Positions 14,201 to 34,548 of a stretch of DNA of 64,000 nucleotides are shown in pieces. Numbering within the stretch: position 1 is the first letter of the stretch; every line of letters begins with the position of its first letter. The translations under genes and the position numbers were made by a program. This stretch comes from Punctularia strigosozonata HHB-11173 SS5 (taxonomy: Eukaryota; Basidiomycota; Agaricomycetes; Corticiales; Punctulariaceae): the NCBI RefSeq assembly GCF_000264995.1, contig NW_006767458.1, positions 5,812-69,811 on the forward strand, in the 5' to 3' direction. The notes under the pieces were generated by a model. It searched no databases and was not told where the DNA came from. It saw only the letters and a list, made by a program, of their open reading frames with translations.

Positions 14201-15488
14201 TGTAATCTGGAGTAGGGTAACGATATGTTAGGGCCATTGTCAATGGAGGCAATGTGGGACCGTCACGCACAGGACAGAACGCCACCACGAAGGACGAACC
14301 AGCGCGTGCTGTAACCCTTCGCGACATTCGTGTATTTATTAAGGTAGCCCTTGAGGGTGGGTGGCTCCGCAGCGGAGTCTTGAGTTTCCAATAGCGCCGT
14401 ATCGCGATTCGTGACTGGATTCTACGATCAGCGAGGGTATACGAGAGTTTATGCATCAAAGCTTACATTGCCTCAGGAATGCTCTTACTCTCTCATCCTT
14501 ACCCGCCGCTTCCACAACTCCGCGACCACGGCGATCCCGAACGAAGACGTCGGCACCGGCACGAATAGCTAGTTCAATCAGTCGCAGGTCTTTACGAGCA
14601 GCTGCAGCGTGAAGCAAAGACAATCCGGTGGTATCGTCAAGATGCGAAAGATCGAGTAGTTTAGTGCGTGGTGAGGAGAGGATGGAGAGGAGGGCATTTG
14701 GCGGCGATGGTGGGCCAGGATCGTGGGCAGATGGTGCGGCAGGTGGTAGGGGAGACATTGCATAGGTTCTTAACAGCGAGCGATAAGAGGCAGTGAGGAA
14801 TGCTCGGGAGTCTGTATAATCGTCCGTTGAGTACCGAGCGGTGTGGCTTGCGCGCGGGACACACCATGGATAGCACGCACGACGTCTCTCCCCCGAGCAA
14901 CGTCCACAGCAGTCTTTCCCTTTTCATCTCTGAGCGTATCGTCGATCTCTTCTTGTTCGAGAAGTAACCGTACGACGTCGGCGCGTCCTAGCGAAGCGGC
15001 GAGGTGGAGAGCGGTCGTTCTCGATCCGGGTGGATGAACAGCATTCGGCGAAATGGCCTTATGCGACAGGACGAGGTTGACAGTGTCATCTAAAGGAGCA
15101 ACGCTCGTATTTGCGTGTATGACAGCGGCTGAGAGGGATGACACGCACAAGTGCCACATCGGATCGCAAGATGAAGGGCTGCCGGCGCGAGGCTGGAGTC
15201 GCCGAGGGTAGAGGTTGACGCTCTTCTCGACTGGTCCTTGCCGATATCAGCTAAGAATGGGTGGATCTGTGCAGGATCACCTGGACGAAACTCGTTACAC
15301 GGACACAGGGAACTCAGGCGAAGTGGCGGACATACCACTGCGTAACGCAGCCAGCAACTTTACTTGATACAACGGTTCTGCGGGACCTAATCGACGGAAA
15401 GTATGATGTCAAAGCCGCTCATCATGAAGAAAGTTGGCTCACCGGAAACATCGCTGCGTACACTGGCATTGCTGGCTTGGGTAGCCAT
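11202..15488 (-). CDS. OSH1: Oxysterol-binding protein, Osh1 type (ANK-PH-ORD)
   Basis: The start at 15488 gives [15 protein letters not shown], joined by splicing to [20 protein letters not shown], the conserved N-terminus of Osh1-type proteins. Ankyrin units follow ([40 protein letters not shown]), then a PH domain split by introns ([20 protein letters not shown] ... [20 protein letters not shown]), a long acidic linker, and the sterol-binding domain with the family signature EQVSHHPPI near 12,310-12,330. It ends with [16 protein letters not shown] and stop at 11202. In the linker EFFDAIE (12877-12897) is a perfect FFAT core with acidic residues just before it, so binding to ER VAP proteins is expected. 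The protein should exchange sterol and PI4P at ER contact sites. Estimated length is about 1,200 residues; no lesion was seen. Confidence 0.92.
12877..12897 (-). other. FFAT motif codons in the Osh1-type gene
   Basis: The seven codons spell EFFDAIE, the canonical FFAT core that binds the MSP domain of VAP/Scs2 proteins on the ER. The residues just before it (DTDEED) supply the usual acidic flank. Confidence 0.85.
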
Positions 15489-16407: not shown

Positions 16408-18406
16408 ATGATCGGTCTGAGCCAGATTGGAGGCCCAACCAGTGCAGTCCCTACTGATATCGACGAGAAGCGATCCTCTAGCAACATCGATAAGGACATC
16501 GAAGATCTCGCTACCGCTGCCGCTCAAGATGAACTGGAATACCCTACCGATGAAGAACGTCAGACACTCCGTAGAGTTTCCGACGCGATTCCGTGGAACG
16601 CCTACTGTACGTTCATTACACATTCCCCTGCACACACATCTGAGCACTTGTCGTTTATCTGTCAGTGATTGCCATAATTGAGCTGGCAGAGCGTTTCTCC
16701 TACTACGGATCCACGGTCGTCTTCACCAACTTCATCCAGCAACCTCTTCCACTGTCATCTCGCACCGGAGCAGGCGGTCTGAATGGCCAAGCTGGGGCGC
16801 TAGGCCTCGGTCAGCGCACAGCGTTCGCCCTGACGACTTTCAACGCGTTTTGGGTCTACGTCATCCCGCTGTTCGGCGCGTACATCGCTGATACCTACTG
16901 GGGGCGCTACAAGACCGTCTGTGTCGCCGTGGGGATTGGGATGGTTGGACATGTCCTTCTCATCGTCTCAGCGCTTCCACCTGTTATCGCGCACACCCAG
17001 GGATCGTTGGCGTGCTTTGTCGTCGCGATAATCATAATGGGCCTAGGAACAGGAGGATTCAAGGCAAACATAAGTCCTCTTGTCGCAGAACAATATCAAA
17101 AATCGAAGCAATACATCCGAGCGACAACGACAGGGGAACGCGTCATCGTCGATCCTATGCTTACCACATCTCGTATCTATATGGTACGTTCGGAGTGTGC
17201 CTTGCGATTTCGATCTGGTATCGACATTCTGCCTACAGTATTTCTATCTCTTCATCAATATCGGAGCATTGGTTGGGCAGATCGGGATGACCTATTCCGA
17301 GAAGTTCATCGGCTTCTGGCTCTCCTTCACTCTCCCCACGATCGTATTCTTCCTGTGCCCGATCGTGCTCTACCTCGGCCGCCATCGTTATCGCCACTCT
17401 CCTCCCACCGGATCTATATTGTCCACCGTTCTCCGTCTCTGGCGCTTCGCAGCCCGTGGACGCTGGTCTGCCAACCCAATCAAGCTGTATAGAAACATGA
17501 CTGCCAGCGACTTCTGGGAATCGGCTAAGCCCAGCCACCAGTCCGCCGAATCCAAACCGCGCTGGATGACGTTCGACGACGCGTGGGTTGACGAGGTCAA
17601 GCGCGGGTTCAAGGCCTGCGCCGTATTCTGCTGGTACCCAATATATTGTACGTTCGGTCCGTCACCACATTGACTCCATTCTGACTTACATCTGACAGGG
17701 CTCGCATACAACCAACTGCACGGAAATCTGACATCCCAGGCAGCCACGTTAGAAACGCATGGACTGCCGAACGACGTGCTGGCAAACCTCGATCCGCTCG
17801 CGCTTATTATATTCATCCCAATCTGTGATCTCTTCATCTACCCGGGACTGCGACGGGTTGGGTTCAACCTGACTCCTCTCAAGAAGATCACTTTGGGCTT
17901 CTACACCGGCTGTGCTGGCATGATATGGGCCGCCGTCGTACAGCACTACATATACAAGGTGACGTATCCTGGTTGAACCTCGTAATCCCAGGCTGACGAC
18001 ACGGATGCAGACGAACCCTTGTGGGACACATGCAGCGACCTGCCGCGACGCGCACAACAACAAGCTCGTCTCCCCCCTAATTGTATGGATACAGACTGGA
18101 TCATACGTTCTCGTCGCCTTTTCCGAGATCTTCGCGTCGATCACCGGGCTCGAGTACGCGTTCACGAAGGCGCCGAAGAATATGCGCTCCCTCGTCATGT
18201 CCGTGTTCCTCTTCACCTCCGCCCTCTCATCCGCGCTAGGAGAAGCGTTCGTCAGCCTGTCGCAGGACCCTTTGCTAGTCTGGAACTATGGCGTGGTGGC
18301 CGTGATTGCGGGTGTGACCGGTACGCTATTCTGGCTTGCGCATCGAAAACTGGATGCCCAAGAAGATGAGCTTAACAATATGGACGAAGGGCATGTCACT
18401 CACTGA
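16408..18406 (+). CDS. PTR2: Proton-coupled peptide transporter, POT/PTR2 family
   Basis: The ATG at 16408 gives MIGLSQIGGPTSAVPT and an acidic cytosolic N-tail ending TLRRVSDAIPWNAY. The first helix carries the POT E-x-x-E-R motif in IELAERFSYYGSTVVF. Then come GAYIADTYWGRYKT (the FYxxINxGSL-family entry motif region), MGLGTGGFKANISPLVAEQY and YLFINIGALVGQIGM, ending ITGLEYAFTKAPKNMRS and a short tail to 18406. Twelve helices are expected; the role is plasma-membrane di/tripeptide uptake driven by protons. A few short introns interrupt it, and the frame is kept at all junctions checked. A damaged tandem copy follows at 18.76-20.65 kb, so this gene is probably the surviving functional member. 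Confidence 0.92.
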
Positions 18407-18757: not shown

Positions 18758-20650
18758 GATTATGAAGCACCAATGGATGAGGATCGCAGGGTATTGCGTC
18801 GAGTGTCAGATAACATCCCATGGAACGCATTCGGTGGGTGTTTCATCGGTCACCCGCCTACGACGAACATACGATTCCGGGTGGTGACACTCATAACATC
18901 TCCTCCTAGCCATTGCCTTCGTCGAACTTGCTGAACGTTTCTCGTCATACGGATCTACCGTCGTCTTCACCAACTTTATCCAGCAACTGCTTCCACAGTC
19001 TTCCGAAACAGGCTCGGCTGGACTACATGGCCAAGCGGGAGCACTCGGCTTTGGTCAGCGCACGGCTTTCGCTATGACCACCTTCAACGCGTTCTGTGTT
19101 TATGTCGTGCCTTTGCTCGGAGCCTATATCGCGGACACGTATTGGGGTCGCTTTAAGACCGTGTGTGTTGCGGTCGGGATTGGGATCATCAAGCACAGTC
19201 TGCTTGTCGTATAGTCTTTACCATCCGTTATCGCGCACCCTCAGGGATCACTGGCGTGCTTTGGCATCGCGGTTGTGATCATAGGTCTCGGCACTGGCTC
19301 TTTCAAGGCGAACATCAGTCCTCTCGTCGCGGAGCAGTACAATAATACCCAACAGTACATCCGGGTCCGCCCTAACGGCGAGTGTCATCGTCAATCCGAC
19401 GTTGACCACCTCCCGCATCTACATGGCGAGATCGATTCAGTTCCAAACTTCACGACCTATTTAACCTTTGAGCACAGTACTTCTACCTCTTTACCAGTAT
19501 CGGGGCTTTGGTCGGCCAGATCGGGATGACGTACTCCGAGAAATTCTTCGGATTTTGGCTCGCCTTCGCCTTACCGACGATCGTATTCTCCCTGTGTCCA
19601 ATGGTGCTCCTTGTTGGTCGTCGGTATTACCGACATTCTCCTCCAGCGGGCTCAGTCTTGCCTGTAGCGTTTCGCGTTTGGCAGTTCACGGCGCGGAAGC
19701 GCTGGACAAGAAACCCTCTAAAGTCATTACGAGATATGTCCACAGACGATTTCTGGGAGACGGCTAAGCCAGGTCGCCAGCTGGATGGCATGAAGCCGCA
19801 ATGGATGTCCTTTGACGTCAGTGAGTCGATGAAGTCAAACGGGGGTTCAAAGCCTGCACGGTATTCTGTTGGTTTCCCATCTACCGTACGATAACCTCTT
19901 GATTCCTTTCGCCCAAGTATAACTCCTATCATCCGTAGGGCTGGCGTACAACCAGTTACATGGCAATTTGACGTCGCAAGCGGCAACCTTCGACTCGCAT
20001 GGGCTACCTAACGACGTTTTGGCTAATCTCGCTCCATTAGCTCTGATGATTCTTATTCCCATTTGCGACATCCTCGTCTATCCGGGGCTTCGTCGCTGCG
20101 GCATCAACTCAACGCCTCTCAAGAGGGTTACCCTCGGCTTCTTTACCGGTGCCGCTGCGATGGCTTGGGCTGCCGTCGTACAGCATTACATCTACAAGGT
20201 ATGCATGCTTGCGATCTTCGAGTTTGCGTTGCCTTCTGATCAACGTGCTGCAGTGGAACCCGTGTGGCGACCACGCTGCGACCTGCCACGACGGCCATGG
20301 GAAGAAACTCGTCGCCCCATTGACGGGCTGGATTCAGACGGGCTCTTACGTCCTTATCGCCCTGTACGAGATCTTCGCGCTTGATTACGGGGCTTGAATA
20401 CGCGTTTACGAAAGCGCCGAAGAACATGCATTCACTTGTCATGTCCGTCTTCCTGTTCGCGTCCGCCGTGTCGTCGGCACTGGGTGAGGCCTTCGTCGAT
20501 CTCTCCCAGGATCCGTTGCTGGTTTGGAACTATGGGTTCATGGCCGTCCTCTCCGCATTTACGGGCGCGTTGTTTTGGCGATCCCACAGGAAGCTGGATG
20601 AGTTAGAGGATGAGTTGAACGGCATGGATGAGGGTCATGTGAACTGCTGA
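18758..20650 (+). pseudogene. Broken tandem copy of the PTR2-type transporter
   Basis: From EAPMDEDRRVLRRVSDNIPW onward it follows the intact upstream gene almost codon by codon (LAERFSSYGSTVVFTNFIQQ; GAYIADTYWGRFKTVCVAVG; IITGLEYAFTKAPKNM). It is damaged. The start and acidic N-tail are missing; near 19214 a TAG replaces the second-helix Ser/Ala codons (LLVV-stop-SLPS); near 19380 two bases are lost, so the GERVIVDP frame is broken; near 19815 one base is lost before the VDEVKRGF homologue; and near 20385 one base is gained before the ITGLEY segment. Intron positions match the first copy, so it arose by DNA-level tandem duplication, not by retroposition. Long intact stretches suggest decay is fairly recent or was slowed by gene conversion. 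Confidence 0.85.
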
Positions 20651-20712: not shown

Positions 20713-21312
20713 ATTCCGACTCCCCCGAAGGAGGGATTTTTTATTTTTACTTTCTGCGCATGGGCCTCGTCACAGTGACAGGACAGTGACCCCAGCCAAA
20801 ACGTTACATAAGCGTGATAAACAGTGATTGTCCGCTACAATCGGACTGCCGTGCGTTAGGACGCAGCAGCGTGACACTGTAGGTGTGAGCACGCTTACAT
20901 GATGTAGTGGTATCACTCTGTACGTGTGATGTATCAGTTGGCCAACCCGCCGAGGTCTTTTTCGCTCTTATCGATATCAGTTGCATAATCACAGTGTCTA
21001 CTGCGCTTTACTTTCTCTGCGTAATGATACTTTCCGTGTCTGGACGGAAATTTGAGCGCTTGTTCGACAAGATAAGATAAACCATGGCTACTCAAGACTT
21101 GTCCACGGATGTCCGCGGATAAGCCCTCTACTGACCGTGGCGAGTAACTTGTGTTACAAAAACATCCCATGGTCATAAATGATGTGTGAGTGCTCATGTA
21201 TGTGTCCTCAGGCTTCCTGATGTGTCCTCGCAACTACTCATACCACACCTATCTTGTAGATGCGCACTGATATAGATACATATACTCGAGCAAACTGCAA
21301 GGGAGGCGGAAT
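20713..21312 (+). repeat. Left unit of the inverted-repeat element
   Basis: This unit starts ATTCCGACTCCCCCG and ends GGGAGGCGGAAT, an inverted pair of about 13 bases, so it could be mobile on its own. Its sequence is the inverted copy of 21442-22335, minus the nested insert there. It gives the uninterrupted version of the site used by the nested element (GAGTAACTTGTGTTAC near 21146-21161). Confidence 0.75.
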
Positions 21313-21441
21313 GCGGCGCTTGGCGCCACCTTACTCACGTGGCTTTCAGAGTATCCATTACCCCTAGACTTGGGTTCCGTTCATCCCGGCTGCAGGCTGG
21401 CTTGTGTGGTCGCAACGTGAGTAAGTGGCGTCAAGCGCCGC

Positions 21442-22335
21442 ATTCCGACTCCCCTTGCAGTTTGCTCGAGTAACTCCAAATCAGTGTGCATACAATACAG
21501 GTGTGGTACGATAAATGCAAGGACACAGCAGGAAGCCATGACATATACATGGGCACTCATGAATTGACCATATCACCGTGGGATGATCCGTCTGAACACA
21601 AGTTAAGACAGGGCCAGCGCAAACCCTGGTACATCACACCATCACGTGTTGGCGCCACAATGGTCTCTCGACCAATCACAGCCCTCGGATGAGCGGGATT
21701 CCCAGAGAATGGGCAGCTTGATTAGGATATCGCTGCTCACCCAGCACTCTCTCATAATATGTAGGACCGTCATATCATCGAGTCATTGTCTAGCTATGAT
21801 GTGACGGTAGTAGATATGTTGCAGCTTCTGTGCAGCGCACCAAATACAACAATTCTTGGCATTTCCTCGACAAATGCGACACGTGATGTACCAGGGTTTG
21901 CGCTGGCCCTGTCTTACTTGCCACGGTGGGTAGAGGGTTTACATCCGCGGACATATCGGCCGTTGCCATGGTTTATCTTATCTTATCGAACAAGCGCTCA
22001 AATTTCCGTCCAGACACGGAAAGTGTCATTACGCAGAGAAAGCAAAGCGCAGTAGACACTACGATTATGTAAATGATACCGATAAGGCCGAAACAGACTT
22101 CGGCGACTCGGCCAACTGATACATCACACGTACAGAGTGATACCAGTACATCATGTAAGCGTTCTCACACCTACAGTGTCACGCTGCTGCGTCCCATCTA
22201 GCGCTCGTCCGTCCGATATTCGCGGATTATCACGCTTTATCACGCTTTTGTAACGCTTTGGCTGGGGTCACATGTCTGTCACTGTGACGAGGCCCATGCG
22301 CAAAAACCAACTCCCTCCTTCGGGGGAGTCGGAAT
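21442..22335 (-). repeat. Right unit of the inverted-repeat element
   Basis: Inverted copy of the left unit, beginning ATTCCGACTCCCCTTGCAG and ending GGGGGAGTCGGAAT. It is 894 bp long because it holds the 309 bp nested element. Without that it would be about 583 bp against 600 bp for the left unit. The arms differ by scattered substitutions and small indels, so the palindrome is not newly made. Confidence 0.75.
21606..21914. mobile_element. Nested 309 bp MITE with 32 bp perfect TIRs
   Basis: Terminal inverted repeats AGACAGGGCCAGCGCAAACC... (21606-21637) and the exact inverse (21883-21914) match over 32 bases. The flanks are TA (or TTA) on both sides: AAGTTA before and TTACTTG after. The other arm of the surrounding palindrome gives the empty site, ACACAAGTTACTCGCCACGG, so the insert duplicated TA or TTA. 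This fits a Tc1/mariner-type (TA) or PIF/Harbinger-type (TWA) non-autonomous element. There is no coding capacity. Confidence 0.88.
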
Positions 22336-22336
22336 G

Positions 22337-23558
22337 ATGAACTCGTCCCAACAGGCGGCTCTCGCAATCCTTGCGTCGTACTTCATCGTCATCCTCACCC
22401 TATTTTCCTTGATATTTGCGACTATACCATGGAGGAATAACGGGAACACCTGGAGGAGATGCATATTTATGCTTTTGACGACTGCATCGCTTGCTCACAC
22501 ATGGTACTGTACGGCGTCTGGACACGCGTCGGTTGATTCGCATATACCTGATTTCTCACCATAGATATGTTCGCGTTCATGAAAGTACGTATACCTCCAA
22601 TGTTCCGAGGCTGTGTTGATTGCACCTGCAGTGGAGCTTTGATGACTACGAATCCAGCCATCTTGCCTCAACATCATCTCAGTACTTGGAGCGAATTGCA
22701 AACTGGCTCGTGGACACTGCACTCTTTGAGCAAGCTTGGGCTAGAGTGTGTGCCGGTCCGCTCAACTGGTGGTGGAGCGAGCAGATATGCATTTACACCG
22801 CTGGAGCGTGGACCGTATTTCTTGTCGTCGAAGGTACGTCTCTTTCTCGTTTAACTGTGGGCATCCTTAGGAGCATGACGATAGGTAGACGCCATGATAT
22901 CAAACACGTATGGGCGTACATGTTTCTGGGCCAGGTGGTCGCTATATCTGTTGCATCCAATGTGTTCTATCTCGCCCTCCTATACGCGAAGTCTTCCGAT
23001 GGTCCAGTTACTGCAGGCCAACGCGCAGCTTCTTCCCACTCCCGTGCCACTTCCCGGTCCCAGGGCTCAGGGATCCTCGTACTCTGCACCTCTCTATCTC
23101 TTGTCACGGTCGCTCTCACCCCGTACCTCTCTCAATACTGGTTCCTCCCAAACCTCCTCCTCATGCACGTGCTCCTCTTCATACCCCTCCTTGCTCCTGG
23201 ACCGACCTCGGAGAAAAGAGAGACGGGTTTGAGCATACGCACCCTCTACAGCCTGGTCACAGTGCTCGCCATTTTCCTCCGTGGTCGCACTGTCTACGAT
23301 GCCCTGTACTCAGCCGCAGCCGTTAGTAAGCAGGCGGACCTGCTACCCGCCCTCTGGAAGACGCTGCATGAACATCCTGCGCAGGCGAGCATCGGCTGGG
23401 ACGTCGTCTGGACCACGATTTCGTTCATATTCTGGGTCATGTCAGACCCACGCTTCAAGGATACAGGACTCCTCGCGATGTTGGCATCGCCCATCATGGT
23501 TGGCCCCGTTGGTTTCCTTGCGCCAGCGACGCTCAGGTGCCTGGAGGAGAGTTCATAG
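22337..23558 (+). CDS. Multi-helix membrane protein, fungal family of unknown function
   Basis: ATG at 22337 (an overlapping ATG at 22334 is in frame) opens MNSSQQAALAILASYFIVIL, a hydrophobic helix. Splicing after HTWY joins a 20-nt exon YMFAFMK to WSFDDYESSHL, and then SSQYLERIANWLVDTALFEQ, WWWSEQICIYTAGAWTVFLV, VEG/RRHDIKHVWAYMFLGQ (intron between G and R), SNVFYLALLYA and further helices ending at 23558. The W-L-x-D-T-x-L-x-x-x-A pattern followed by a WW-x-x-Q helix is known to me from uncharacterised Agaricomycete membrane proteins. About eight helices are expected. The start codon lies exactly at the end of the inverted-repeat element, so the 5' UTR and promoter must lie in that element. 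It converges with the pyranose-oxidase gene. The exons look undamaged. Confidence 0.7.
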
Positions 23559-23836: not shown

Positions 23837-26621
23837 TCATTTGGCGCTCTCAAGGGCGTTGATGATGGATCTTGCGGAACGGATGGCGTACCCCATGGAG
23901 GTGAGGGTGGGATTGGCTGCATAGCCGGTTGGAATCACCCCATTGCCTCCGACGTAAAGGTTTGAGAAGTTGTAGACCTTGCAGTTCGTGTCCGCGACAT
24001 GCTCCTTCGAGTCGAGACTGCGGATGTTCATCAGGACATGGGATAAAGAATTGATGATTGCACTGACCCTGCGCGAACAGTGCCGCCTACGTTTGCAGAG
24101 GATCATCAGTCCCATATCATTTGCGTGTTATTGTGACTGACCAAGATGAAGAGCCAACCCCGGAGCCATGAACTGAGGCTCGGAGCCAGGCAACCAGCCT
24201 CCGAGTTCTTTAGCCACGTTGCACATGCTACACGTAGCGAGAATGATACCGTTATATGGTGGCCTGCACAAAAGAAACCCAATACTCACTCCGTCATCAT
24301 GTCATGAGCACGAGTCTTGTCGTCGTCGCTCATGCGGAATGTGAACGTGGGCTGGGGCATGCCATATCCGTCCTCGTACTTGGTCTCGAAGTCGATCCTA
24401 TTGGTTGCTTCGGGCTTCACGTATCCAAAGAATCTGAAGTCAACGATAGTCCGTGTGTCGATCGTCTCAGCAACAGCGCCGTATGAGAAGGCGTCGCGAT
24501 GGATCTTGCATTCACAATTAAAGCGGACAATTACTTCGCCAGCAAAGAGATGATATACCTGGGCGTGCCATGGTTTATCCTTTGTGAATAGCTTGGTTAC
24601 TTGCGGTTCTCCATCGCGGAAGGGGACTAGAGCAGTGTCATGAAGTCGCGTTCACGTTGACGAGTTTATACTTACATTTTAAAGGATCCTCCGGATGTTT
24701 CGCCTTCTGGTAATCGACCTAATATACACGTTAGAGGTGATCATGGCTGTGAACCCGATAACGTACCTTTTCCTTCCACCACGAGAGATTGTAAGGGTTG
24801 TTCGGGATGGTTTTGAGTAGACTGGTCTTGAGAACGATTTGGCAGAAGGACATGCTAAACAACATATCAGTCATGACGAGCGGTGGATCAGTTCAGAACG
24901 AACGGCTGCTCTGTTATATGCGTGCCCTGCGTGTATGTTAGAAAATTCCATATATCCCGGCTCCGCGACTTATACGTACCAAGTTATGGATGGTTGGAAG
25001 CATGGATGTAGTCATGGATGTAGTCGTCTTCCGCCCAAATCCTGAGTTGAATAAGATCTATGAAACACGGGTTATCAACGACATCAACACTTCGGTATGT
25101 TACGCACCTGCGGTGTAGCAACGGCACCCGCGGCGATGACATACATCTTCGCCTGAACGTACGAATGCTGCTCCTCGTGGTTGCTGACGTCTGCTAAGAA
25201 ATCCTTCACTTCAGCTGCGCCGATCGTCCACGTCCCATCAGCATGATGATCAGATACGGCCACACGGGTGCAACGATGGTTCGTGAGCAATCTGAATCTG
25301 GACTTCAGCTCGGGATTGGTGTATATCTTCTCCAGAATAACGTCCGTGCCGTGCCAGTAGACGTAGTCTGGGTTCGGCATGCGATGACACGCCAGCGGAA
25401 GAGGCCCAAAGTCGAGCTTGGGCTTCCCGTTCGTACCATTGAACGCATTTTGAAGGGTGCGGAGGACGAGCGTGTGGCGAATCGACTTGTCAAATGCGTG
25501 AGTGGTAGTCCCGATGAGTTTCATAGCTTCTTCGTATAGCTCTTCCCAGGCGTCGAAGTTCTCCTGTTCGTTCGACACAATTCGGGGGAGCTCTCCCTGG
25601 CGGTTGAACTTGGGGGTGGCGCAGGTCCAATGTGTCTGAAGAGAATGTCAGATCAAGCGGTGAGGTGAACTTCGTCACATACCGTCATTCCGCCCACACC
25701 GCGCGTCACTGCCTCTGCAGCCAGGTTTAGATTAGCCTCCTGCGATGGGTTCTTTCCGTTCGTAACTGGGAGCTCGTCCCCTCTATGGATTAGTAGGCAT
25801 GCGTCAAACATAGATACTATCTACAGCGATCTGGATAAAGTACGAACCCGGCTCCCCAAGACGTCGGGTCGAGCGTGTCTGACGTTACATTCTTGACGGG
25901 AACGGATACAACGCTGAGGGCACCCTTAAAGGAGGTCGTAAGTGAATGACGATAACCCACGTCGAGGACTTAGTAATACCTTTATCACACTTTGGAAGGT
26001 ATACAGTCTCGTCAACGGTGGACTCTGCATTCATGAAGGCTACATACTTAACAAAGCGGTCAATGTCCTGTGAATCGGTGAGCGACTTCAAAGTTCAATA
26101 TCGAATATAAGCCTTCCTCACCTTCTGATACTCGACTTCGTTCTTCTTGTGAGCGCCGGGGATGAATGCATCTCTGTTTGATATATGTTACAAACGAAGA
26201 CAAAAGTCACGATCCGAACTTACGCGCTTCCATCCTCGGTAGTGGTCGCCTTGAAGCTATCGCTGAATGACAACCGATCAGTCCCAAGCACTGTGCATAC
26301 TCACGCTATCACGCTCACGCAGCGCCGAGTTCACACATGACAACCTTGGATAATGTTCATCAGTTGGGTCCATGCCGCAGCAGAGAACACGCACCTTATA
26401 ACCAGCCTCGACGAGCAGAAGTGCATAGGTCGCACCGATAGGACCACTTCCGGCAATGAAGACCTTGAAGACAATACGTTTACAATGAACAACCTCATGC
26501 GTGATACGCGCAGGAGGCTTACGTCGGCTTGAAAGTCACGCAACTTCTTGTTGGGCTTGATTGAAGGGTTTATACCCGCAGAGCCCTCACGGAGGATCTC
26601 TTCGATGGACTTGGAGGACAT
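23837..26621 (-). CDS. Pyranose 2-oxidase-like flavoprotein with altered active site
   Basis: ATG at 26621 gives [16 protein letters not shown]. The next exon has the Rossmann motif [20 protein letters not shown]. Then come [29 protein letters not shown] joined by splicing to [10 protein letters not shown] (its His carries the covalent FAD in pyranose oxidases), DAFSYGAV (the substrate loop), [22 protein letters not shown] and the C-terminal [20 protein letters not shown], whose Asn is the second catalytic residue. All are in the order of P2Ox (GMC superfamily, C2 oxidation of glucose to glucosone with H2O2 release). The expected GGTHRMG, holding the catalytic His, reads GGTVRAG in a 19-nt exon (24068-24086) between a 55 nt and a 50 nt intron. 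Both junctions are canonical and the frame is kept. So this is a substitution, not a frameshift. About 14 introns; about 640 residues. It is divergent from the aldos-2-ulose dehydratase gene. Confidence 0.88.
24068..24086 (-). other. 19-nt microexon with His-to-Val change in the P2Ox-like gene
   Basis: Acceptor ...CGTAG, exon GCGGCACTGTTCGCGCAGG, donor GTCAGTG. It completes LHLG and continues to [11 protein letters not shown]. The codon at 24076-24078 (minus strand GTT, Val) occupies the place of the P2Ox catalytic His, and the following Met is Ala (GCA). Confidence 0.75.
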
Positions 26622-26701
26622 TGCGAGAGTTGGTTACGAGCTGAGCGAGCGAGTTACTGCCAGTGAGTGCAACTTAAGAGTAGTCGAGTACCCTTGTCTC
26701 G

Positions 26702-26712
26702 TTTATATATAA
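26702..26712 (-). promoter_or_regulatory. TATA box of the P2Ox-like gene
   Basis: CTTATATATAA on the minus strand, about 85 bases upstream of the ATG at 26621, the usual place for a fungal TATA element. Confidence 0.55.
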
Positions 26713-26920
26713 GATTGTACGGACGAGTCGCCGCACAAAAGCCACATAGTCACGCCAGCGAATGCATGCGTCCATAGCAGACATTGTTTGGTAATTGTGC
26801 GGCTGACTAGCCATTTGGCGTATACGTCAGAAGTTTTCAAGAACCCCATGACTTACCAGGGCGCATCTCCGTACATGATTTTGGGGTACGACGAATACAA
26901 GATGGCATACAGCTGTTCAA

Positions 26921-27187
26921 ATGACGTTCGATCCTAGAAGCCAATCGTGTGTCAGAGACAACTCCATCGCTGCCGGAGCTTGCGTACATCCGGACGTATT
27001 GGTGCGCTCGCATGGAGTGGAGCCAGTACCCGTGGGTCTGTCGACTATTGAGGAACAAGATTGTGTCAACAACAATTACATCGCAGACGGAGTATGCGTA
27101 CCTCCGACGATGAGTTCGTATGGCAGAAATGAACACCCGTTGACCATTGCAGGACGACAACGTGAGAGCTTGTTTGAGAGCGTATGA
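26921..27187 (+). CDS. Small open frame with a duplicated NxIAxGxCV motif, doubtful gene
   Basis: An 88-codon frame reads CVRDNSIAAGACVHPDV and, 38 codons later, CVNNNYIADGVCVPPTM. The two DNA copies (26948-26996 and 27062-27110) agree at about 35 of the first 45 positions, with the protein motif N-x-I-A-x-G-x-C-V kept. I do not recognise the family. It could be a fragment of a decayed gene or an exon of a small gene. There is no signal peptide or domain to support a function. It lies inside the shared promoter region of the P2Ox-like and AUDH genes, on the AUDH strand. Confidence 0.25.
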   Translation: MTFDPRSQSCVRDNSIAAGACVHPDVLVRSHGVEPVPVGLSTIEEQDCVNNNYIADGVCVPPTMSSYGRNEHPLTIAGRQRESLFESV

Positions 27188-28290
27188 GCCTGAAGACTGC
27201 CATGACGTGACGGAGACTGGATGAACTTTTTCATGTTCAAATCGGCCCGTATGTGTTACTCGGTGCCCTGTGCCTGCAAAAATGGTAGTGCGCCAGCTTC
27301 TCTATCTGAGTGGCATCCGGGGCACTGTAAGCCCCCTCCAGAACAATTAGGGTGGAAAGGAGGCCAAAGAAGGAACTGCAAGTGATAATCTTCGCGTTCC
27401 AGCGGGCGCAATCACCAGCACATTACGAGAACATGTGACAAACGCGGCATAGGTTATTGACATTTGCCACAGTCATTGTGGAAAACAGTGTTCTCGTGGT
27501 ACGCCATACTGATGGGCGAGAAGATCAGATGTCATGAATAGCTCTGGTCGGCGTCGAATGAGATCCGGTGGAGATGTTGATACTAACTAGTCTAGACTGC
27601 ATGACAAGGTCCGACTCCATCGACAGGCACGAAGAATCTTCTGTGAAGAGTTGTCAGTATGACACTTTTGAGAAAATACGAAGCGCACCCTGTGATGCGC
27701 CCCTCTTCAGCATAAGAACTATACAATGCCGACTGAACGGCGGAGACTCTCGACGGAATCAATGCAAGAGATCGAGTACTTGTGGCTGTATGATCGTCTG
27801 ATCGTGTTAATGGACTGGCATGCCGCAGGACTGCGTGCGATGAATAACTGCATCCCAACAATGCTAGATGAGCCTTTCGTTTAACTCATCAGTAAACACA
27901 CCAAAATGACGTACTGGGTGGTGCCTGCCCCATTGTTTCACAAGAGTCTACGCTCAATCTAGGGAGCAAGGACGGGGCACGCCCACGGTCGATCGGCGCT
28001 ACCGACTCTCCGAAGCTGCCCGAGCGCGGATGTAGAAGTACAGAAGTACACGTGATCGTGGTGCACAGTCGCGAACACGCGCTCGTCTCTCGTCTCCCTT
28101 CGATTATCCGCTCTTCCCCCATACTCCGAGCTGACAGGCCAACATTCTGGTCTCCGAACTCGGAAACAAGGGTGTATATATTACGCGCAGAAGCCACCCT
28201 CGAAATCCCAACGCGCCGCATAACCTACGCTTGAACACATGCAGACTCCTTATGTCAAGCGAGAACACCGCGACTGTCATCGGTGCGCAG

Positions 28291-28298
28291 ATAAATAC
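28291..28298 (+). promoter_or_regulatory. TATA-like element of the AUDH gene
   Basis: ATAAATAC lies 89 bases before the ATG at 28380. A second AT-rich site, TGTATATATTA (28173-28183), lies further upstream. Confidence 0.4.
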
Positions 28299-28379
28299 AC
28301 GCTGGCGACACTGTGGTGGATGGAAGTTGTGAACATACGTCCATCCGCACCCTCGGTTTTCACAAGGACTTAGGACGCC

Positions 28380-31300
28380 ATGCAACATTTTTCTAAGATC
28401 GAAGTTCAAGGGTCTCGCCCTGATGGCTACTGGGTCGAAGCCTTTCCATTCCATACCAAGGATACTCAGGCTCCTGATCTTGTCGGGTACGGGTTAGGCA
28501 CGTCTCAAGATGCGAGCAAGATTCATGTTTTCCGCAATCCTTATCGAAAGGGACAATCGTGAGCATCATACCTCCGTCGTAGCTGAGATTCCCTCATAGA
28601 CGTTCAGGTCTATACCGCCCCCTACGGGTGATTGGCAAAATATCCACGTTGCAACGCTCCAATTTCCGGTCGCTTTCTGCTGCGCCGATATATCTGGGAA
28701 TGGATATAACGACAGTCAGTATTCGTCTTATTCACAGGTGTCTCTCGATTCTAATGGTTGAATACGCATGCAGTCATTCTTTCTGACACCTATGGCTCCT
28801 CTATGAATGACATCTGGTCTGACGGCGGTAGAGTAAGGCGATATTGCAGTCACCCAATGGCCCATGCTGATTACGTCATCGTCAAATTGTACAGGTTAGT
28901 TGGTTTGAGAATACGGGCGACTACAACCGTGAGGTTTGGACGCAACGATATATAGGCCGCAGTCCCGGTATGCACCGACTGAAAAGTACGCGCCTACACA
29001 ACGTTCAGAAATCTCGCAAGGCTGACACCTTTTGCGCTAGCGGGTCATTTTACGACCAGCAACGCAGTCCAAATCATTGCCGTCCCTATCGTTATCAAGT
29101 CGGGTGATTTTGAGAGTCCTGCGCCGGTTATTATCTACACCGCTCCTCCAGATCCCAGGAGTCCCCAAGTGGACGGGGGCTGGCCTAACGAGATCGCTTT
29201 CAAGGACACGTTTCGCCTGGTTCATGAGATCACTGGTTTGTATACTTGTCCTGCATCGTACTTGACGAAAGCTTGCCTCATTACTATCACTAGTTATTCC
29301 CGGTGCGAACAATGGCCTGGATCAGGTATTACTGGCCGGTCGCGAGGGCATCAGCCTGATTTGGTATAATGAAACCTCCAAGAAGTGGATGTCTGAGCAC
29401 TTGGGATCTGGCCTTAGTCAAACTCGAGGAAATCCCTTTTGGGGATCCGGGTCAGGTCAGTAACCTCGCTTCTGGAGTGCATCCTGATCTTGACTGATCG
29501 AAATGTAGTGGATGTTGCGAAGGTCCACGACGACTCCGCGGGATATATCGCGTCGTGCGAGGTAATTCTAGGCTAGCTTGACTACCGTATATTTTACTCA
29601 TTTTCATGATAGGCGTTCCATGGCAATACTGTGTCGGTGTATACCAAACCGACCAATGCTCCCAAAAGCCAGCTTCGAGGAGTCAATTGGACTCGGCACG
29701 TCCTCGAAGATTTCGGTCCTCTCAACAAGGAACACACCGGCTCCATACATTACGTGGTCTGCGCTGACATCGATAACGATGGGGTTGAGGAGCTTCTAGT
29801 CGCGTTGATGGGCTCCGATCCACCGTCCTGGGAGAAGACGGGCGTGTGGTGCTACAAACGTGCCGTTCTTCGACATCGTCGCTTTGTATCTAATTAATAC
29901 TCTCCTCTGACAGCGGTCGACCTCCAGAAAGCCAAATTTTCCAAGAGGAAGCTCAGTGATAATTCAGCCGGTCGCATTGCCATAGCTGATTTCAAGAGCA
30001 CGGGCGTACTGGTATGATGTCCTTGATATTCTGTTCCACGCTAGTCCCATGACTGACTTCTTTTGCAAGGATTATGCGACTATCTCCTACTCCGTCCCAG
30101 GCTACTTCGTATCACCGAACCCATCTATTAACGCTTTTATCAATGCGCCTATCACAGCTGAAAGACTGAACGACGAGGTCCTCTTTCGTGTTCCGCGACC
30201 TACTGCGGCACCAGGCATCGACGAGGTTATGTTCCTCGATGTTGCTAGTCGTAAACTTGCACTCGTGGTGGTGCCCCCTCATCAAAAGTATGCGATTGCA
30301 CAAGGCGATGGAATCAAGGTCATCGCAGGGCGGGGTAGGTTTCGTAACTTGGTCAACATGTCGCACGGGGCTCACGAACCTTCCGTTTAGTGACTTGGAC
30401 GAATGCGAATGACACAACGCATGAACGTACCATTGCTACTGCACCATTCACAGCAGTATCCACCAAAATCGACGCAAAGGACGGGCATGTCTACACTCAG
30501 GCGGAGGGAGCCGTTTTCGTTCTCATGAAACACTCCACCACCTCCGGTGCCCCGCCCTACTCCAACATGAAGCAGCTGGCGGCGCATAACCTCTTTAACA
30601 GTCGCTTCCCCAAGGATCTACAACACATGTCATTTCCCTGGGTGAAGGTCGAGGATCGTCCTTGGGCTAATGGCGGTTTCAAGGTGAGCTCCGCACGACT
30701 TTCGCTTTCTGCCATCATTGATCAGACTTCCCAGGGCCTAGAATTCTACAATCTGACCGGATTTTATGTCCGCTATGCCGACGACAGCGATGATCTTATC
30801 TGCCACATCCAACTGTGGACCGCTGGAGTAGGCGTAAGCGCCGGGTTTCACAACCACACCGACAAGTCGTTCTGCGAAATCCATGCGTGTATAGTGAACG
30901 GGACGGGCAAGGGTGGGATGTATTGGGCGACGGTGGAGGACGAACTGTTTGATCCCGCGAAACCGGACGAGGACAAGTACACGGGAATCGCCGTACCAGA
31001 CATGAGCGAACATGGTCCGCTATGGCGAACGAGCGAGGACGGGCTGCCGCTCCTTCGTTCGAATGATACCGTGAACTATCCATGGCACGGTAAGTCACCA
31101 CGAAGGTCTTTCTAGACGCCTTGTTGACGAATCATCATATATCAAGCCTGGATTGCGGGCAAATCGCCAACAGCAGGGCAGAAATTCGATGTCTGGCTCG
31201 CGTTCGAATTCCCACCTTTCGTCGCCGAAGCCGAGCAAACCGCCAATATGGTGACCTTGAAACCTGGCAAGTATCGTATCTTCAATCCGGCCTCGCAGTT

Positions 31301-31861
31301 GGAGCTGCAAGTGCAAGGCGGAGAGTCGAAGGACGGTGCACCGGTGGTGGGGCATAAAAAGGGACCTGGATCGCAAGCGGTACATTTCCTCGCTCTCTGT
31401 CTCACTTCCGTACCCCACTGACCGGAAAAAATAGTGGGAGATATCTGTCATTCCCGGAACGCGCTTCCAGCTGTTCCATAATGACGTCAGTCGCTCCAAT
31501 GCCACGGTCGTGTGGCCTCCTACGGCTGGCCAGAAGGTAGTCGGCAGTCGCTCCGCGGCCCGCTTGGACCTCACTTCTGCTTGGGCACTCGCATCCGCTG
31601 GTGGAAACACGTATGAGTAAGCAAAGAGCGATCTGCTTAGACATCGCTGGCGATGCTCATTCGTTTTCACTGGTCGCAGGGTCAGGCTCATCGGAACCCA
31701 CCTCGTTCTGGAGGTTGATGCACATGGCAAAGTTCATGTCAGTGAGCACGATGACGCCCTTTCGTCAAGCTTACTGACGAAGTTTCCTTTAGATCTCGCC
31801 GAAGGATCTGGTACCAAGGGAGTCGCAGAAATGGCACTTCGAGGCTGTTTCGTCAACATGA
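28380..31861 (+). CDS. Aldos-2-ulose dehydratase (pyranosone dehydratase)
   Basis: ATG at 28380 opens MQHFSKIEVQGSRPDGYWVE, matching the start of Phanerochaete AUDH. Splicing gives FPVAFCCADISGNGYND, ILSDTYGSSMNDIWSDGGR/VSWFEN, RSPGMHRLK, GNPFWGSGS, CEAFHGNTVSVYTKP, LNKEHTGSIHYVVCADIDND and ATISYSVPGYF: the N-terminal beta-propeller. The cupin part has WTAGVGVSAGFHNHTDKSFC followed by EIHACI, with the HxH...E...H metal-ligand pattern, and SEHGPLWRTSEDGLPLLR. The C-terminal lectin-like part ends with ESQKWHFEAVSST and stop at 31861. Relatives are about 900 residues with the same ending; this one is similar. The enzyme dehydrates glucosone to cortalcerone and 1,5-anhydrofructose to microthecin. 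Around twelve introns were followed with the frame kept at every junction checked. A further open stretch at 31,880-32,173 in another frame might be an alternative 3' exon, but the SST end fits the family better. Confidence 0.92.
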
Positions 31862-32363: not shown

Positions 32364-33067
32364 CTAAGCGCCCTCCTCGTCCGATTCCTCCAACTCCGTC
32401 AACTCGCTCTCGTCGCTCTCGTCTCCCTGCCCCTCTCCCTGCCCGCCCGCCACCTGCGCCGGGCCGAACTCGCCCAGATCCACGCTGCCCACCGCCGGAA
32501 ACCACCCGTACTCTCTCAGACGCACCCTCGCCTCCCCCTCTCCCCCGCGCCCGTCGACGACGACGACGCCCTCAGCCTCGAGCGCCTGACGCTGTCTCCG
32601 CGCACCGTCCGTGCCCGGTCCTCTCGACGCGATCGCGCCCGACGCGCTCACGACGCGGTGCCAGGGCACGGGCGGGGTCGTTTGCGGCGATAGGAACTTG
32701 AGCGCTGTGAAAACGGTGCATCAGCACACCACCCCTTACCCCTTTTTTTTCTCTCCTTCGGGAACGGAACGCAAGGAGCGGGAGTGAATGTGCTCACCTT
32801 GGCCGACGAGTCTCGCATGCCGCGGCATCCCAAGCAGCTTGGCGATATGACCTATAAGAGCACGTTAAGTAAAAGCATCCCCTCCCACCGCACAGAAGGT
32901 TGGGAGAGTCCGCAACACGCACCGTAGCTGGTCACCCTCTGGGGTGGTATTCGTCTCACAACATGGTAGACCTATGTACGCCGTCGCTTCATCTTCAATA
33001 CGCGTTCCGGGGGGAGGTTCTCGCATCAAGATGTATTCACCGCAGCATGGAACTCGGCCGCGTCCAT
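32364..33067 (-). CDS. Alkyltransferase-like protein (ATL, MGMT DNA-binding fold)
   Basis: Start at 33067. Exon 1 (33041-33067) encodes MDAAEFHAA, then VYHVVRRIPPQRVTSYG, HIAKLLGMPRHARLVGQ and ALKFLSPQTTPPVPWHRVVS. The MGMT active-site PCHR is PWHR here, so the protein cannot accept an alkyl group and belongs with the ATL group (fission yeast Atl1), which binds O6-alkylguanine and hands it to nucleotide excision repair. Then come SRGPGTDGARRQRQALEAEG, which includes the helix after the active site, and an unusual Gly/Gln/acid tail of about 35 residues ending ELTELEESDEEGA. All introns are GT-AG and in phase. The gene is intact. It converges with the AUDH gene; the palindrome at 32200 lies between their 3' ends. 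Confidence 0.9.
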
Positions 33068-33347: not shown

Positions 33348-34548
33348 TCAATCCACGCGCTTCGGGATGTGCCCGAGCGGGAGCGTGAACCACGAATCGT
33401 CTGGCCTCAACAGCTCCGCCATCGCGCAGTAGTACGCGATCGCGGCCGTGAGCAAGCCAAAGCCACCGCCGGCCTTGGTGATCGTCACCGAATTCCTAAA
33501 TTCGGCTGCAAAGAAGCGTTGTTTATCAGCAAGAAGCGGCCGTAAATAACTTCAAGATGGACACGCACCGATCGCGAGGAGGAGGAAGGTGATGGTGAGG
33601 AAGAAGAGCAGGGCGATAAAGCCGACGTTACGCCGAAGAGCGGCAACACTGCCCCATTCAAACGCGCCGATCAGCATTTTTTGCGGACGTTCAGGGACGG
33701 GACGTGGAGAAGTGGTGAGCGGACGCACAACATGAGGGCGGTGAAGATGAACCAGCTGGTGAGGAAGATGCCGAGGGCGTTGTGCAGCTCGTTAGGGACC
33801 GAGTCGTACGCGGCGACGATGCCCGAACCCGGGATAAGGATCGTGGCGTACGAGAGCCAGAAGGTGCCGTAGGCCGAGAAGGCTGTTGTAACATACGCGG
33901 CGTCAGCGACTGCATGTCCATCCACGACGGAGAGGAGGAAACAGGGGGATCATGACGTGGGAACGGAGGCATTTCGGGCGGCGCGAGCACCGGCCCGCGT
34001 CGGGTCCGCCAAAAGCGGATCGTCGATTTCCTCGTATGGTATATCGATACTCACCGGTGGCGCCGAATGTGTTGCCGCAGGCAAACTCCCACATGCCTAC
34101 AATGCGTGCGTATGTGTCAGATAGACCGCCGCTATCGTCGACGGAGGGGGGAATGGCCACGCACCTGCGAGCAGTTGGGCGAGGCCGCCGACAAAGAGCG
34201 CCATGCCGACGACGACGTTCGGTTCGGTCACGCCGCGCGTTTGGACGTTGAAGAAGGATAAGACGAGCGTCGTCGACGCGAAGGATGTTAGTCCTCTGAA
34301 CGATAGAACCCAACAAGTTAGTCGATCAACCGCAGCAGATACATGGCGAAGTGTGCTCACAGAGGACCGGGGTTGCCCAGACGCCTAATGGGCTTATTTC
34401 CGATCTGGTTCCATGGGTGGAGGCCGTGGACGTGAGGCACCCCTGCTGCACCGTATGGTGCCTGCGCTCCGTTGGCGTTGGGATCCGCAGCAGCACCGGC
34501 AGCACTCTGCTCGTTGTACGCGACGCGTCCTTTCTCGATGTCGGCCAT
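33348..34548 (-). CDS. GPR1/FUN34/YaaH-family acetate transporter
   Basis: Start at 34548 gives MADIEKGRVAYNEQSAAGAA and a cytosolic tail ending IRRLGNPGPLG, the family's N-P-x-P-L-G signature before the first helix. Exons then read LTSFASTTLVLSFFNVQTRG, VGMALFVGGLAQLLAGMWEF, ACGNTFGATAFSAYGTFWLS, LGIFLTSWFIFTALM, VAALRRNVGFIALLFFLTIT and TKAGGGFGLLTAAIAYYCAM, ending FTLPLGHIPKRVD and stop at 33348-33350. Six helices are expected. Yeast Ato1/Ady2 relatives move acetate or ammonium at the plasma membrane. The short C-terminal tail ends soon after the sixth helix, as in relatives. All junctions checked keep the frame. The protein is about 250 residues, the normal size. Confidence 0.92.

Follow-up and report, generated by a model that had tools for sequence, protein, structure and literature searches.

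Gene content and gene models

The locus described here lies in a window (the whole stretch of DNA that was analysed, 64 kb in length) placed on contig C26; the assembly totals 33.57 Mb in 32 contigs and is fungal by its gene content. Two genes stand head to head, a predicted pyranose 2-oxidase (P2Ox) and a predicted aldos-2-ulose (pyranosone) dehydratase (AUDH), and a gene for a multi-helix membrane protein converges with the former:

22334..23558, plus strand: multi-helix membrane protein gene, 4 exons encoding 356 aa, converging on P2Ox
23837..26621, minus strand: P2Ox gene, intact, 19 exons encoding 606 aa; the start codon ATG is at 26621 and the stop codon ends at 23837
26622..28379, no strand: shared divergent upstream region, 1758 bp between the P2Ox and AUDH start codons
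28380..31861, plus strand: AUDH gene, 881 aa, 16 exons, intact; ATG at 28380, TGA ending at 31861

The reading frame of the P2Ox model is unbroken, and all 18 of its introns have GT-AG boundaries. The predicted protein belongs to the pyranose 2-oxidases (AA3_4), as judged by its match to the curated equivalog profile TIGR02462 (pyranose_ox) over residues 33-602 of 606 (795.4 bits, 3.1e-239, against a cut-off of 544.9 bits). The top structural match is PDB 4mif (4.9e-195, residues 29-599 of 606), which we take to be the Phanerochaete chrysosporium enzyme; the two differ somewhat in length (606 residues here vs 620), and several loops are shorter in P2Ox in the alignment. The next matches, at about 1e-141, are presumably the Peniophora and Trametes enzymes. 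P2Ox appears to retain the residues for FAD linkage, catalysis and gating: by hand count, His166, Thr168, His539 and Asn582 align with His167, Thr169, His548 and Asn593 of PDB 3bg7 (presumably the Trametes enzyme), positions that we take to include the FAD-linking histidine and the catalytic His/Asn pair, carried by the histidine of THWTC, the histidine of LHLGG and the asparagine of NPTLT. The same count places Asp444, Phe446 and Tyr448 of the gating segment at Asp452, Phe454 and Tyr456 of 3bg7, where substitution is essentially not tolerated according to the accessible part of the published account (PMC4735113). Searches of the assembly with the whole P2Ox protein and with the TIGR02462 profile gave no second P2Ox place among the best candidates scored. 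A pseudogene had been suspected from the short exons and from a seemingly absent motif before the catalytic asparagine; once the 18 short introns were spliced out, all of the breaks were gone.

The final AUDH model aligns with PDB 4a7k over residues 8-834 (8e-283) and is 54% identical to it across the aligned region. We take 4a7k to be the P. chrysosporium AUDH; propeller and cupin domains are present in both proteins, whereas their lengths are 881 residues here and 900 in 4a7k, with the AUDH residues past 834 left unaligned by HMMER. Assignment of the predicted protein to the AUDH family follows from its beta-propeller and cupin domains (AUDH_Cupin, 372.5 bits, 2.4e-111, cut-off 25; AUDH_beta_propeller, 246.9 bits, 1.5e-73, cut-off 27), the scores being those of a 937-aa draft that departs from the final 881-aa model in its C-terminal part only, with both domains inside the common part. 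The cupin segment HNH...CEIH is invariant relative to the aligned 4a7k sequence. An intron 1 error and a faulty 3' end in two earlier AUDH models were corrected in the model that ends at 31861.

When the assembly was searched with the first 726 AUDH residues and the AUDH_Cupin profile, no second AUDH place was found among the best candidates scored, and none of 14 control genomes had a match to the AUDH_Cupin family. Two contig scans for relatives in bacteria and archaea, which used 6 and 2 peptide patterns, returned 9 and 61 pattern matches, none of which was confirmed; because the patterns were so few, this absence is weak evidence.

Arrangement and shared upstream region

The two genes are immediately adjacent, as in the P2Ox-AUDH pair of wood-decay fungi. 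In-frame stops lie directly upstream of both starts, at 26636 for P2Ox and 28371 for AUDH. An earlier note on this DNA had named the two enzymes, placed their genes divergently with 1.76 kb between them and ended the dehydratase gene at 31861; the profile and structure matches, the intact models and the 1758-bp interval bear this out, and the end coordinate was exact.

The shared region occupies a single place in the genome, with no second copy, and a six-frame search found no Pfam family in it at E 0.01. A motif scan detected a TATA-like box near each gene:

approximately 26704-26712, no strand: TATA-like box, P2Ox side
approximately 28175-28180, no strand: TATA-like box, AUDH side

Each gene could therefore have a core promoter of its own, in which case anything shared would be upstream elements. 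In our judgement 1.76 kb is long for a single core promoter, and this length, together with the TATA-like boxes, does not require common control. Joint control of the predicted pair is nonetheless plausible, and the region contains a repeat and a set of palindromes:

26942-26992 and 27056-27106, no strand: diverged direct repeat, 51-nt units, 38 of 51 positions identical, spacing 114
starts at 26974, 27088, 27549, 27986 and 27994 (span 26974..28012), no strand: five CGG-N13-CCG palindromes, candidate zinc-cluster factor sites

The direct-repeat score was reached by none of 100 dinucleotide shuffles. Both 51-nt units contain CGGA-N11-TCCG, which is a form of CGG-N13-CCG, and zinc-cluster regulators of fungi typically bind CGG palindromes whose spacing is fixed. 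When spacings of 0-19 were scanned across the shared region, N13 gave five sites and every other spacing gave at most one. Five N13 sites were reached in 0.02% of 5000 dinucleotide shuffles, and five sites at any of 21 spacings in 0.1% of 5000. Since N13 had been taken from the repeat before the spacing scan, this spacing is tested just by the three sites that lie outside the repeat; in that portion (27107-28379) the shuffle mean was 0.26, and 0.12% of 5000 shuffles reached three.

Against background matched for CGG/CCG content, not one of 1123 windows reached even four sites at any spacing, a number to be read with the overlap of these windows in mind, as they correspond to no more than a few tens of independent stretches. 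In the unmatched background of the 64-kb window, at least four sites at some spacing occurred in 25.6% of 1175 windows, at least five in 11%, and at least three N13 sites in 3.2%. Two of the five palindromes stem from one duplication, and two others overlap. The 64-kb window shows no enrichment of CGGA-N11-TCCG (3 occurrences vs 2.40 expected, with 46 of 100 shuffles reaching 3). A genome search for CGGAGNNTGCGTACNTCCG with at most one mismatch found no place elsewhere, compared with one for the reversed control pattern, and therefore no regulon is seen. A text search of the literature for the palindrome motif in variant spellings retrieved no paper. With its controls mixed in this way, the palindrome array is a lead, a possibly new detail and a candidate shared regulatory site.

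The shared region also holds an open reading frame (26879-27187, plus strand) that carries both repeat units in one frame and would encode QxCVxxNxIAxGxCVxP twice. Codon scoring gives it an intermediate -0.036 per codon in its own frame (-0.314 and -0.388 in the two alternatives), where intergenic sequence averages -0.304 (sd 0.122) and the minimum in the P2Ox/AUDH training-set windows is 0.122; the membrane protein gene scores just -0.147 in its last exon. No other genome match was obtained for this frame at E 1, nor any Pfam match. Codon positions 1/2/3 carry 2/6/5 of the differences between the units, a split unlike the pattern of a conserved protein. A hidden gene is an unsupported, at most possible reading of this frame, given how low the last exon of the membrane protein scores.

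Neighbouring genes, repeats and genome content

The membrane protein gene does converge with the oxidase gene, as the earlier note had claimed, their last bases being 278 bp apart. The suggestion that it might be a third member of the cluster did not gain support: its only Pfam match, to DUF2834, is sub-threshold (21.5 bits vs 22.9), PDB offered no credible match (best E 0.53), and no paralog was found in the genome. A simple hydropathy scan marks six hydrophobic stretches in the protein.

A peptide-transporter gene is separated from the membrane protein gene by two inverted copies of a repeat (20713-22335), whose arms are 83-88% alike; among the 110 matches listed, contig C1 carries two copies of the repeat (617 and 619 bp) that are up to 96% alike in parts. 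In its terminal bases this repeat overlaps the initial ATG of the membrane protein gene, whose upstream region thus appears to be repeat-derived. Inside a copy of the repeat sits a 313-bp element (21604-21916) with perfect 34-bp inverted ends, most of whose length is matched at 97-99% by four other genomic places among the matches listed; it is probably a recent nested insertion, because the two C1 copies of the outer repeat are without it.

Further out in the window are the following:

approximately 14896-15045, minus strand: ankyrin-repeat matches
approximately 16900-18400 and 19475-20650: tandem pair of PTR2/POT peptide-transporter genes, 3' parts 72-73% alike
approximately 32565-32678, minus strand: DNA-binding domain of a 6-O-methylguanine DNA methyltransferase, lying downstream of AUDH and opposite to it in strand (position of the Pfam match)
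approximately 33363-33910, minus strand: GPR1/FUN34/YaaH family membrane protein, past the methyltransferase domain (position of the Pfam match)

Across the whole 64-kb window, no Rfam family reached its gathering score.

A family search of the assembly returned 11 Peroxidase_ext matches, every one of them above cut-off. We take this family to be a marker of fungal class II peroxidases, and the matches point to a host of the white-rot type, as far as gene content can indicate it. For the glyoxal oxidase family (Glyoxal_oxid_N) there are 18 exon-level matches in the genome, 9 of which are marked above cut-off. Peroxide thus has both an obvious use and other possible sources in this genome.

A probable divergent pair for the cortalcerone pathway

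With both genes intact, divergent and each in a single place, and with the active-site residues of the oxidase kept, we regard the locus as, with high probability, a two-gene metabolic pair for the cortalcerone pathway. P2Ox would act at C-2 of glucose, as of related pyranoses, forming glucosone and passing the electrons to O2, which yields H2O2; AUDH would then remove water from glucosone to form the pyrone antibiotic cortalcerone. Class II peroxidases in the same fungus could draw on the H2O2 from P2Ox. The shared 1.76-kb region probably drives expression of both genes together, and their linkage has probably been kept because AUDH would dispose of the reactive product of P2Ox. The consecutive steps that the earlier note proposed agree with the biochemistry in the accessible parts of the literature, in which glucose and O2 give glucosone and H2O2, and glucosone gives cortalcerone (sources including PMC4256170).

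The linkage has also been described before, which answers a question that the earlier note had raised. In Phlebiopsis gigantea, the P2O and pyranosone dehydratase genes (Phlgi1_130349 and Phlgi1_16096) are immediately adjacent, and the same adjacency occurs in several other wood-decay fungi, according to the available part of that report (Hori et al., 2014; PMC4256170). The P. gigantea pair and the present one consist of the same two adjacent genes, and for both the proposed route leads from glucose to cortalcerone; relative to the accessible text of that report, orientation and spacing are given here alone. In the accessible texts consulted on both enzymes and the pathway, linkage is discussed nowhere besides that one paper (Hori et al., 2014).

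Several other accounts of the pair deserve weighing. P2Ox might chiefly supply peroxide for lignin decay, with AUDH merely detoxifying glucosone and the antibiotic cortalcerone arising as a by-product. The 11 Peroxidase_ext matches fit this account, as does the role usually assigned to P2Ox in the accessible literature, namely H2O2 supply; however, the Glyoxal_oxid_N matches represent other possible makers of H2O2, and the retention of AUDH beside P2Ox argues that the AUDH step matters. We consider this account possible but somewhat improbable as the main explanation, and it is compatible with the cortalcerone reading rather than exclusive of it.

The P. chrysosporium dehydratase also acts on anhydrofructose. 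If 1,5-anhydrofructose, from the starch/glycogen lyase pathway, were the main substrate of AUDH here, leading to ascopyrone M or microthecin, the neighbours would not be consecutive enzymes in vivo. The structure of the P. chrysosporium enzyme, whose title describes a bifunctional dehydratase/isomerase with ascopyrone M (Claesson, 2012), lends this idea some substance, but adjacency to a glucosone-forming enzyme, both here and in the published wood-decay fungi, favours glucosone, and we judge a main role on anhydrofructose distinctly unlikely. That the two are chance or relic neighbours, one of them decayed or misnamed, is very improbable: each of the two predicted genes has a complete frame with GT-AG introns and matches strongly along almost all of its length, so that the intact models already contradict such a view, and the accessible literature has the P2Ox-AUDH pairing recurring in other fungi.

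Within the cortalcerone reading, which is very probably right, the shared region might act as a two-way switch, its palindrome array (two members of which lie in the duplicated 51-nt module) being bound by a Zn2Cys6 regulator that would induce both genes and be pathway-specific for cortalcerone. We hold this more detailed scheme to be speculative and rather unlikely.

Significance

Since the linkage was reported in 2014, the pair is a sound but largely ordinary finding. It is a clean, intact example of a known wood-decay linkage, set in a genome whose gene content is of the white-rot kind and provided with exact gene models, and by itself it changes little. If the palindrome array were functional, it would offer a handle on the joint switching of peroxide supply and cortalcerone formation.
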